Shown here in pieces: positions 24,520 to 29,131 of a DNA stretch of 64,000 nt (its first letter is position 1; each line of letters opens with the position of its first letter). The stretch comes from an uncultured cyanobacterium (GTDB taxonomy: Bacteria > Cyanobacteriota > Cyanobacteriia > Cyanobacteriales > Geitlerinemataceae): contig CALCCD010000127.1 in the NCBI GenBank assembly GCA_937899645.1, positions 1 to 64,000 on the forward strand, written 5' to 3'. The translations under genes and the position numbers were made by a program. The notes beneath the pieces are model-generated. The model was given only the letters and a program-made list of their open reading frames with translations, was not told the DNA's origin and did not search any database.

Positions 24520-24948
24520 TTACGAGTTCGTAGTTTGCGCTTCGAGCTGCTGCTTGAGCTTGGCCAGTTCGTCCGCCCAGCGCGGGTCGGGTTGGCTCGC
24601 TGCCGCCGGGGTGCTGCCCGCCGAGCGCAGGCCGGAGCCGGGCTTGTTGCCGCGACGCGCGCCGCCATTGCTGCGAACCGGCGCGGGCGCGTCCTCTTTC
24701 TTGCGGGGTTGAGCTTTCTCGACCTTAATGCTGGTATCGCCCAGCGCCTTGCCGTCGTACTCCGCAATGATCTTATCGGCATCTTCGTCCGCCTCGACGG
24801 TAACGAACGCAAAGCCACGGCATTTGCCCGTCTTGCGGTCGGTGACGATCTTGATCGACAGCTCGACGCCCGAATCTTTGAACAGCTCCTGCAGCTCCTC
24901 TTGCTCGATTTCCTTCGGCAGATTACCGACGTAAAGGCGGGTGGACAT
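24520..24948 (-). CDS. RNA-binding protein with one RRM domain
   Basis: This 142-residue protein has one RRM at the N-terminus with RNP2 (LYVGNLP, residues 5-11) and RNP1 (CRGFAFVTV, about residue 43), and a low-complexity tail rich in Ala, Gly, Pro and Lys/Arg (about residues 80-142). Such Rbp proteins in cyanobacteria are often cold-induced and bind mRNA or take part in mRNA localisation at thylakoids. GGAGG precedes the ATG. The tail, ending in a short helix (DELAKLKQQLEAQ), is longer than in the smallest Rbp proteins. Confidence 0.93.
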   Translation of the reverse strand: MSTRLYVGNLPKEIEQEELQELFKDSGVELSIKIVTDRKTGKCRGFAFVTVEADEDADKIIAEYDGKALGDTSIKVEKAQPRKKEDAPAPVRSNGGARRGNKPGSGLRSAGSTPAAASQPDPRWADELAKLKQQLEAQTTNS

Positions 24949-25600: not shown

Positions 25601-28033
25601 TTACAGCCCGCCTCGCGCGATCGCGATCGCGCCCCAAAACGCGCAAAGAACGGCGATCGTCGTCGACCAGATCGGGTGGCCGTTTTGGGCGGAAGCGTCG
25701 GCCTGTGGCGCGCCGTCTGCTGGCGTTCCGACCTCCAGGCGATCGACGTCGATCCAGGGGGCGAAGCCGCGACGGAACCAGCCGGTGACGGTGACGGTTT
25801 GGCCGATCGCGTCCACGGCACGGTCGTAAGTGGGGACGAGCCAGCCCAGCCAGCCGGTGCGATCGAGAACGTGCAGCGGCCAGAGGCGCTGACCGTCGTC
25901 GAGCCAGAGGTCTTGGCCGAACCAGTTGGCGACGCCGCGCCGCCCCACGAGCGTGCCGGTCAGGCGTAGGGTGCGGCTGTCGATCGGCAGGCTGTCGAGG
26001 TCGAACGTCCAGCGATCGAGGTCGGGCTCGGTGTTAAGGGCGTAGGGCTTGAAGTTAGGGAAAAAAGCGTTAACGCGCAGCAGCGTGCCGACCGCAAAAC
26101 CGACGAGGGTCAGGCCCAGGGTCAGCCACGGCCAGTCGGCTTGGAGCCAGGAGAGCGAACGCAGCTCGAACAGCCTGCCGATCGTGCCGACGCTAGCGGC
26201 GATTGCCACCAAACCCAGCGCCACCGAGACGCCTAAAAACGGCGCGAGATTGTGCATCAGGGTCGTACTGGCGAGCAGGCTGGCCGGGGAGATCGGTAAG
26301 ACGCGCTTAGGCGAGCGCAGGCGGCGGTTGTCGCTTTGAGCGATCAGCTCCTCGGCGGTAAACTCCGGCGCGGCTCCGGCACGCTCGGCCAGGGCGACAA
26401 GTCGGGCGAGGCGCTGACCCAGGGGCGGGTGGGCGCTGGCGATCGACAGCCAGATGCCATAGGAGCCGCTCGCTTCCCAGCGCAGCGCGGCCAGTACCGA
26501 AGTGCGATCGGCGTATCGTCCGAACCAGACGCCGTGAAGCGGATCGATGCCACCCAGGGAAACGAACCGCTCCAGCAGCCGGGGCAGAGCACGCGCGTTG
26601 CCACACTCACCGCACTCGAAAGCCGCGCGCATCGACATGGCTTGCTTGACCAGGCTGCGGGCGCGGGCGTTGGGGTTGCCGGTCAGGTTGGCCGAAAAGC
26701 GATCGGCGTAGGTTTGGCGCAGGCGCGACCAGTAAAGCACCGGCAGATTCAGCAGCCGGTAGACGCCATAGGCAAGGGTCGCAAACGTCGAGGTCAGCCA
26801 GAGCGTGAATCCCGCCGCGAGGTAAATCGCGCTCTCGAGGCTGAAGGCCAGCGCATCCGGCTTGCGTACAGTGGCGATCGCCTCACAGCGATCGCCCAAT
26901 ACCGACAGACCGTCATAAACGCAGTAGAACACCTGTAACAGCATCGCGCTGGCCGTCGCGAAGAACACGTCCTTGCGCGCGCCTGCCCCGAGGCCCGCTG
27001 CGATATCCGCCGCCAGCTCGTCTGCTGCCAGCCCCTCGATCGCCCCGGTCGAGATTGCCAGCCGCAGCGACTTGCGGCCGTAGCCGTACGCCCACACGAA
27101 CGCGGCCGGAGCGTCGATCGTCACGAGTTGGGGCTTTGCGGCCCCCTTAGCACGGGCAAATTGCGAAATCAAACGCGCAGCCTCGGGCGAGATTTTTTTG
27201 AGGCGGCTTTGGGTCAGGGGCTTGGCACGATACTGCCACTCGAGCAGCTTATCGAGAGCAAACGGCGCGGCGATCGCGATCGCAACCAAAAACAGCGCGA
27301 TTTTCAGATCGTGCCGCAGGTAAAACGCCTGCACCGGACGCAGCCCGATCGTCAGCAAAAAGTCGTTCGCCTGTGCCATCAGCCAGTGCAGCCCAATCGT
27401 CAAGACGGCAAAAATCGCCCCGGTGGCCAAAATCTCCCGGCGGCGCAAATGTCCGGCATCCAGCGGCTTGAGTCGCTGCCAGCGCTCGGGGCGTCCGGCA
27501 TTGCGCCAGAACGTGCCGGAGTCTGTCTTGGTGGCGGGCTCGGCGGTCGGTTCGGCAGGAAGCTCGGCGGAAGCTGGGACGGTCGGTGCGTGCGGTTTGG
27601 GCAGTTTGGGCGGTTGAGGGGCGAGCGATTTGGGCCGGGGCGATTTGGGCCGAGGCGGGAGCGGTCGCCGGGCGGCGGTTTGGGTCGCGCGTCCGCTGGG
27701 CTTGTTTGGTAAGCGTGGCGCGGGTTTGGCCGGTTTGGCCGGTTTGGCCGATCTGATTGGCTCGGCGGGCGGGTGCGTTGCAGGCGTCCCGATCGCGAAG
27801 GCGTCGGCATCGAATGGATTGTCGGGCTTGGTACTGCCCGCCTCCCCGGACTCAGTCGGCGGCGTGACGATCGCGCGGGCGCGTTTCGGCTTCGTGGGAG
27901 CATTCGGCTCCGTTCCGTCCGTCTCCAGCGGTACGAAACCGGCCCGCTGGCGATCGCGCGTATCGCGGGCAGCGCGTTCGGCGTCGGGGTCGGTCGGTCG
28001 ATCGTTGCGGTCGGAAGAAGGGGGAGTCGCCAT
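25601..28033 (-). CDS. M48-type (HtpX-like) membrane protein with degenerate zinc site
   Basis: The 810-residue protein has a Pro/Lys/Ala-rich N-terminus (residues 1-170, with PAKPAKPAKPAP), membrane helices at about 200-220 and 245-260, then an M48 peptidase-like region. In active M48 enzymes the segment reads ELxAVLAHELGH; here ELAADIAAGLGAGARKD (residues 339-355) has AGLGA at 346-350 where HELGH should be. The third ligand context, usually ExxAD, is QTYADRFSANLTGNP (Q440). The later HPPLGQRLARL motif remains. A C-terminal strand-rich region follows two more helices. It is therefore probably a non-proteolytic relative of HtpX. It lies 132 bases downstream of hemC on the same strand. Confidence 0.8.
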   Translation of the reverse strand: MATPPSSDRNDRPTDPDAERAARDTRDRQRAGFVPLETDGTEPNAPTKPKRARAIVTPPTESGEAGSTKPDNPFDADAFAIGTPATHPPAEPIRSAKPAKPAKPAPRLPNKPSGRATQTAARRPLPPRPKSPRPKSLAPQPPKLPKPHAPTVPASAELPAEPTAEPATKTDSGTFWRNAGRPERWQRLKPLDAGHLRRREILATGAIFAVLTIGLHWLMAQANDFLLTIGLRPVQAFYLRHDLKIALFLVAIAIAAPFALDKLLEWQYRAKPLTQSRLKKISPEAARLISQFARAKGAAKPQLVTIDAPAAFVWAYGYGRKSLRLAISTGAIEGLAADELAADIAAGLGAGARKDVFFATASAMLLQVFYCVYDGLSVLGDRCEAIATVRKPDALAFSLESAIYLAAGFTLWLTSTFATLAYGVYRLLNLPVLYWSRLRQTYADRFSANLTGNPNARARSLVKQAMSMRAAFECGECGNARALPRLLERFVSLGGIDPLHGVWFGRYADRTSVLAALRWEASGSYGIWLSIASAHPPLGQRLARLVALAERAGAAPEFTAEELIAQSDNRRLRSPKRVLPISPASLLASTTLMHNLAPFLGVSVALGLVAIAASVGTIGRLFELRSLSWLQADWPWLTLGLTLVGFAVGTLLRVNAFFPNFKPYALNTEPDLDRWTFDLDSLPIDSRTLRLTGTLVGRRGVANWFGQDLWLDDGQRLWPLHVLDRTGWLGWLVPTYDRAVDAIGQTVTVTGWFRRGFAPWIDVDRLEVGTPADGAPQADASAQNGHPIWSTTIAVLCAFWGAIAIARGGL

Positions 28034-28165: not shown

Positions 28166-29131
28166 TTAGTTGTCGCGCTCGACGGTCTTGAAAATTTCTT
28201 CGAGAATTTCCGTCGCACCTCGCTCGCGCAGCTTGCCCGCCAGCTCGATCCCCAGCGACTCGCAATCCGTCGCCGCGCCGGAAACTTCATCCTTAATCAG
28301 CACAGAGCCGTCTAACTTGGCGACCATGCCTTTCAGCATCAGCGTGTCGCCGTCGATGACCGTGTTGACGCCGATCGGCACCTGGCAGCCGCCTTCCAAG
28401 CTCCGCAAAAACGAACGCTCGGCAAGGCAGCGGTAGGTCGTCGGCAAGTGCTCGATCGCCTTAAGCACGGCCTGCGTCTCCGGGTCGTCGGTGCGGCACT
28501 CGATACCCAGCGCGCCCTGCCCGACCGCATGCAGCGACACCTGCGAGGGAATTACCTGATGTACGCGCTCTGGCATGCCCAGGCGCTCCAGGCCCGCCAC
28601 TGCCAAAATAATCGCGTCGTACTGACCTTCATCGAGCTTTGCGAGGCGCGTATTCAAGTTTCCACGTACGTCCTTAAACGTCAGGTGCGGGTAGTGGTGA
28701 CGCAGTTGCGCCAGACGACGCAGCGACGACGTACCGACCACCGCGCCTTCCGGCAGCGTGTCGAGCAGCTTATCCTTATGCTTTTCGTGGACGACCAGCG
28801 CGTCGGCGGGGTTCTCGCGCTCGGTGATGCAGGCCAGTGTCAGCCCTTCTGGCAGCTTCGTCGGCAAATCTTTAAGCGAATGCACCGCAAAATCGGTTTG
28901 CTTCGCCAGCATTCCGACTTCCAACTCTTTCGTAAACAGCCCTTTGTCGCCGATCTTCGCCAGTGCCACGTCCAGAATGTTGTCACCCTGAGTACTCATG
29001 GTCTCGATCTCGAAAGTGATGTCGGGGTAGGCCGCTTGGAGCGTGTCGCGCACCCAGTGAGTTTGTACGAGCGCGAGCTGGCTTTTGCGCGAGGCGATGC
29101 GGATGGTGCGCGTAGCGGCGGAGGCTGTCAT
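28166..29131 (-). CDS. hemC: Hydroxymethylbilane synthase (porphobilinogen deaminase)
   Basis: HemC joins four porphobilinogens into hydroxymethylbilane, the shared precursor of haem, chlorophyll and bilins. The 321-residue protein has [14 protein letters not shown] at the N-terminus, [22 protein letters not shown] and the dipyrromethane cofactor cysteine Cys249 in [11 protein letters not shown]. Length is normal. It precedes the M48-type gene on the same strand. Confidence 0.97.

Follow-up and report, generated by a model that had tools for sequence, protein, structure and literature searches.

Alignment and phylogeny give good support to the view that the loss of the zinc motif in an M48/HtpX-like cyanobacterial membrane protein is ancient, and that this loss defines an old monophyletic clade of cyanobacterial proteins, referred to here as clade A. 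The member of this clade encoded in the window, that is, the whole stretch of 64,000 nucleotides that was analysed, is almost certainly a non-proteolytic pseudoprotease, because judging from its sequence it does not possess the residues for catalytic zinc binding and peptide cutting. The positions of the features discussed below are collected in Table 1.

Table 1. Features of the clade-A gene of the window and of its downstream neighbour
Feature	Position	Strand	Basis
HtpX-derived membrane protein of clade A (pseudo-M48), 810 aa	25601..28033	(-)	Intact ORF; Pfam M48, 36.4 bits
Residues 1-175: Pro-rich N-terminus, probably disordered, in place of the TPR region of other members	27509..28033	(-)	TPR region matched in A and B members; no match for the window protein or L036
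Core of the M48 fold, residues 280-560; contains two hydrophobic segments (about 356-378 and 402-432)	26354..27196	(-)	Pfam, conservation, hydropathy
AGLGA (residues 346-350) where HELGH is expected	26984..26998	(-)	Family alignment against active sister clade B (HELGH); alignment to HtpX 3CQB
Gln440 instead of the third zinc ligand Glu (clade B REYFADH)	26714..26716	(-)	Glu present in 20/20 rows of clade B and 0/61 rows of clade A
Domain at the C-terminus, residues 676-768, with a predicted OB fold and the conserved motifs N...QDL and GW.RRG	25730..26008	(-)	Conservation, AF2 model, structural matches
rbp3/rbpG, class II RRM RNA-binding protein with PDPRWA tail, downstream neighbour of the clade-A gene	24520..24948	(-)	Sequence, PDPRWA motif, conserved synteny

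Loss of the zinc motif in the window protein and in clade A

The first-pass annotation had described a long and intact gene for an M48/HtpX-like protein in which HELGH is replaced by AGLGA and the third zinc ligand by Gln. Our analyses bear this out. Firstly, the reading frame runs through all 810 codons without interruption, and the relatedness of the region to M48 is upheld by Peptidase_M48 (Pfam PF01435), which matches residues 286-547 with an E value of 6e-9 and 36.4 bits, above the curated cut-off of 20.3 bits, and which also matches 22 of the 22 clade-A members tested. Secondly, the clade-A profile aligns to the solved HtpX 3CQB (E 1.2e-7), with its 'aelahi' segment on 'aHEvsHi', and in the family alignment the window's DELAADIAAGLGAGARKDVFF lies on DEIATVYAHELGHIVHWDFA of active relatives, which places AGLGA at HELGH. 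In the same way, RLRQTYADR lies on RTREYFADH of active relatives, so that the third ligand is Gln440, followed by TYADR, at a position occupied by Glu in every clade-B row. Thirdly, no HE..H, H..H or H..EH was found when the window protein was scanned from end to end, and no intact HExxH is therefore present elsewhere in it. The M48 features that had been noted as retained (ELAAD...ARKD, YADRFSANLTGN and HPPLGQRL) are real, and they are largely conserved across clade A. The M48 profile also hit designed helical repeat proteins; these hits were attributed to chance similarity of the TGNPN...R helix and discarded.

Relatives were sought in 292 sampled genomes of the phylum and were present in 83; clade-A orthologues were found in 69 of the 292, the per-genome counts of clade A and of its active sister, clade B, being approximate because they derive from the best few scored candidates per genome. 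The alignment contains 61 sequences of group A, including that of the window, and 20 of group B, and our statements on the two groups apply to these sampled sequences. The first His and the third-ligand Glu are present in none of the 61 clade-A rows, and the catalytic Glu and the second His are kept in 32 and 27 of them, respectively; the complete set of H, E, H and E is present in all 20 clade-B rows. A tree of 90 rows, built without the catalytic columns and with HtpX as the outgroup, recovered clade A as monophyletic (SH-aLRT 94), and a 42-row tree of the M48 core, from which these columns were likewise left out, gave support of 98/99 for A and 98/91 for B. Thus, the question raised at first pass of whether the loss forms a conserved clade among cyanobacterial relatives is answered in the affirmative, and the clade-wide alignment rules out a motif loss limited to the window gene. 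All four catalytic residues have been lost only in the window's genus and in some other clade-A members. The window's genus is the extreme and most reduced form seen, with four catalytic residues changed and the N-terminal TPR region gone.

Further zinc-motif losses were placed within the otherwise active clade-B branch (L078/L082, L092 and L095, and a partial loss in L085). The genome of the window encodes four other M48 proteins (L001-L004), all with an intact HExxH and none of the TPR-M48-OB type. Outside the sampled genomes, a search of genome contigs returned two loci, both from the window's genus, and relatives were found neither in the viral contigs scanned nor in the plasmids searched.

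Membrane anatomy, the C-terminal domain and selection

Hydropathy analysis of the window protein yielded seven candidate transmembrane segments, at about residues 203-226, 241-262, 356-378, 402-432, 595-618, 634-653 and 787-806, of which the third and the fourth are weak. An HtpX-type topology has two transmembrane segments before the M48 core and two inside it, with the catalytic domain in the cytosol; by hydropathy, the hydrophobic segments lie where this topology expects them, and loops with a net positive charge lie on the presumed cytosolic side. A TPR-like region of about 90 residues is located at the N-terminus of most A and B members inspected, and a search for it in the window protein and in L036 gave no match. 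Prediction of the full-length structure from three sequences reached a pLDDT of 34. In the case of the C-terminal domain, residues 670-775 were modelled alone with AF2, at low confidence (pLDDT 64), which gave the order b1-b2-b3-a-b4-b5, and the top structural matches of this model, with a Foldseek E value of 4e-3 and a best VIA Z of 8.6 for a query of that pLDDT, were all OB folds: RPA, CST, PriB, SSB and the anticodon-binding domains of tRNA synthetases. The domain is therefore probably an OB fold as modelled. A profile search of the PDB with this domain returned nothing significant, and a match to DUF5818 was not adopted, as it was weak (best E 0.0015) and seen in 9 of 31 members. With its predicted transmembrane segments, the TPR region of most members and the OB-like domain, the anatomy fits the membrane scaffold role that had been proposed at first pass.

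Clade A is under purifying selection. The overall dN/dS is 0.10-0.24 in twelve close clade-A pairs, and the N-terminal value is higher in most pairs. Between L036 and L037, two relatives from the window's genus, dN/dS is 0.16 overall, with lower values for the M48 part (0.13) and the C-terminal domain (0.09); between the window and L036 it is about 0.24, with synonymous sites nearly saturated. The reading frame is open in three genomes of the genus. A set of M48-fold residues is kept in clade A (Y316, G317, S328, G330, E339, D444, P454, N455, R459, W519, H535, G539 and R541), and positions 346, 347, 350 and 440 are variable. Furthermore, the conservation of A relative to B has its lowest ratio, 0.55, in the HExxH helix, and amounts to 1.0-1.3 in the C-terminal transmembrane and OB parts, a pattern that fits the loss of catalysis with another job being kept. 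The selected, non-proteolytic role suggested by the first-pass annotation is thus well supported by the age and monophyly of the clade, its long and widespread genes, the purifying selection and the conserved non-catalytic core. Degeneration into a functionless gene heading for loss in the window's genus, which might be suspected from the four changed catalytic residues, the missing TPR region and the long branch of the genus, is very improbable given the three open reading frames, the dN/dS values within the genus (that of the window being saturated) and the conserved clade-A residues retained by the window gene.

The neighbourhood of clade-A genes

The gene downstream of the clade-A gene of the window (SQPDPRWADELAKLK, with a product ending in ...PDPRWADELAKLKQQLEAQ) encodes a single RRM and a C-terminal PDPRWA, which assigns it to class II, and it scores below the NCBIfam Rbp_regulator cut-off (74 versus 100 bits). 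Class II Rbps, among them Rbp3 of Synechocystis, are marked by PDPRWA (PMC9333190), and this motif is present in nearly all syntenic rbp3 copies. Rbp3 binds photosynthetic mRNAs and has been implicated in placing them at the thylakoid, and an Anabaena mutant in rbpG, the homologue of Rbp3, has fewer photosynthetic mRNAs and disturbed thylakoids (PMC11500504).

According to whole-genome coordinates, rbp3 is located on the same strand and at most 3 kb downstream of the clade-A gene in 48 of the 65 A genomes for which this could be determined, and elsewhere in the other 17; in 4 more the contig ends. Because members of a family have a common ancestry, these 48 cases do not count as independent events, and the meaningful figure is the 10 family groups over which they are spread. 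Among 28 A loci with larger flanks, rbp3 recurs in 23 and an upstream prfC in 13, and other separate coding neighbours recur in at most 5. Two further neighbour clusters, in 4-6 of the 28 loci, look like frames opposite the rbp3 and prfC genes. No rbp3 was found at about 20 B loci, where the downstream sequence that could be examined spans roughly 0.7-3.5 kb. In Anabaena PCC 7120, rbpG is all4377 (PMC11500504) and release factor 3 (RF3) is all4379 (PMC12282138), which fits the order prfC-A-rbpG. From the identities of these flanking genes, all4378 is likely the clade-A gene of this strain; the literature searched, which was covered in part, makes no mention of it. Rbp3 with the PDPRWA motif is near-universal in Cyanobacteriia, including many genomes that do not have A, and A is thus not generally essential for the function of Rbp3.

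Some loci depart from the common arrangement. In the window, hemC (28166-29131, on the same strand as the A gene) takes the place immediately upstream that prfC has in many relatives. At L036:8550-9010, the rbp3 gene beside A is split into two frames, one with the RRM and one with the PDPRWA tail, possibly as a result of an assembly error.

Between the stop of A and the start of rbp3, about 130-330 nt past the stop, a non-coding element, CCTCCCAACACAGCAAG, is conserved and precedes a terminator-like hairpin at loci L049, L106, L065, L061, L105, L017, L022, L024, L047, L052, L064, L023, L059, L053 and L018. The stem of the hairpin varies yet stays paired, for instance CCAGCCG..CGGCTGG and CCAGCTAC..GTAGCTGG. 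The element, which includes a stretch of CCUCC, is a candidate for a small RNA or for part of the 3' UTR. It had no match in Rfam 15, an Rfam scan of the window returned nothing, and the element was found neither upstream of rbp3 in sampled loci that do not have an adjacent A nor in the window's genus. Since the terminator-like hairpin separates A and rbp3 in many loci and families, the two genes are probably not part of one transcript.

Possible roles of clade A and comparison with known systems

We consider it probable that clade A has an adaptor or platform role. The M48 fold and the OB-like domain would both face the cytosol and form a membrane-anchored binding platform or adaptor, not an enzyme. 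Such a platform, located at the thylakoid or plasma membrane, might cooperate with translating ribosomes and with mRNA bound by Rbp3, and it may dock Rbp3 and its mRNA or guard nascent membrane proteins there. This second step is the weaker one, and follows from the fact that A, and not its active sister B, is kept beside rbp3/rbpG and often prfC. A tie of clade A to Rbp3 or to translation, read from gene order alone, is accordingly only tentative. For the explanation as a whole, namely a pseudoprotease that is kept by selection and serves as an adaptor at the membrane, probably for translation or the placement of mRNA, the chances seem to us about even. The window's genus has neither the TPR region nor the last catalytic residues, which suggests that whatever function remains would reside in its M48 fold, its transmembrane part and its OB-like domain.

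It is also conceivable that clade A provides a cytosol-facing platform for the quality control or chaperoning of nascent thylakoid membrane proteins, in which the old HtpX substrate groove binds and does not cut. The neighbourhood of rbp3 and prfC would then reflect shared regulation with translation, and clade A would not contact Rbp3 or mRNA directly. HtpX natively handles membrane proteins, the M48-fold residues Y316, G317, S328, G330, W519, H535, G539 and R541 are conserved, and prfC, encoding RF3, lies upstream in many loci. However, it is the C-terminal membrane and OB part, and not the M48 core, that shows the strongest conservation of A versus B, and we regard this possibility as rather unlikely.

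Dead paralogues that regulate active ones are a common theme, and clade A might regulate active M48/HtpX proteases, for example by acting as a decoy for substrates or as a dominant-negative partner, in a role unconnected with RNA. On the one hand, A shares the TPR-M48-OB architecture with the active clade B, which by our approximate counts co-occurs in 22 of the 69 A genomes, and the window genome has its four other HExxH-intact M48 proteins. On the other hand, synteny is with rbp3 and prfC, not with a protease, and in 47 of the 69 A genomes, including that of the window, no active B was detected, so that B cannot be a general partner. The idea of a partner of B has been demoted for this reason, and regulation of active proteases is, overall, unlikely.

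The preferred reading of clade A as a membrane adaptor can be put more specifically. Rbp2 and Rbp3 have been implicated in holding photosystem mRNAs at the thylakoid surface, and the word 'receptor' is absent from the Anabaena RbpG paper (PMC11500504). For their attachment there, the dead yet conserved membrane protease whose gene neighbours rbp3 in 10 family groups offers a concrete candidate. Clade A could be the membrane-side partner of Rbp3/RbpG, an ex-protease receptor that docks photosynthetic mRNAs or ribosomes at the thylakoid, perhaps with its OB-like domain touching RNA, although we hold this version to be quite unlikely.

Inactive protease homologues are already known as a kind. In iRhoms, for example, a membrane protease fold has been kept after the loss of catalysis and serves selected non-catalytic roles; their fold is unrelated to that of clade A. 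The literature searched, again with partial coverage, contained neither an inactive cyanobacterial M48 clade nor its link to rbp3. HtpX (M48B; NCBIfam PRK02391 and related; 3CQB) resembles clade A in its M48 core, in the position of the motif helix and in the surrounding membrane segments. HtpX models are also the best NCBIfam matches of the window protein, which differs from HtpX in having no HExxH and no Glu ligand, in scoring 43.4 bits against an equivalog cut-off of 341, which is thus not reached, and in its length, which exceeds that of HtpX by about 500 residues and includes a 2TM-OB-TM extension at the C-terminus. The nearest sister group, clade B, has the same TPR-M48-OB architecture, transmembrane parts and OB-like domain. 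Unlike A, it keeps the full catalytic set (HELGH/REYFADH), is less conserved in the C-terminal transmembrane parts and was not found beside rbp3 or prfC at the loci checked. Clade A is also a clear-cut example of a bacterial pseudoprotease of ancient origin, for which an active sister clade is available for comparison.
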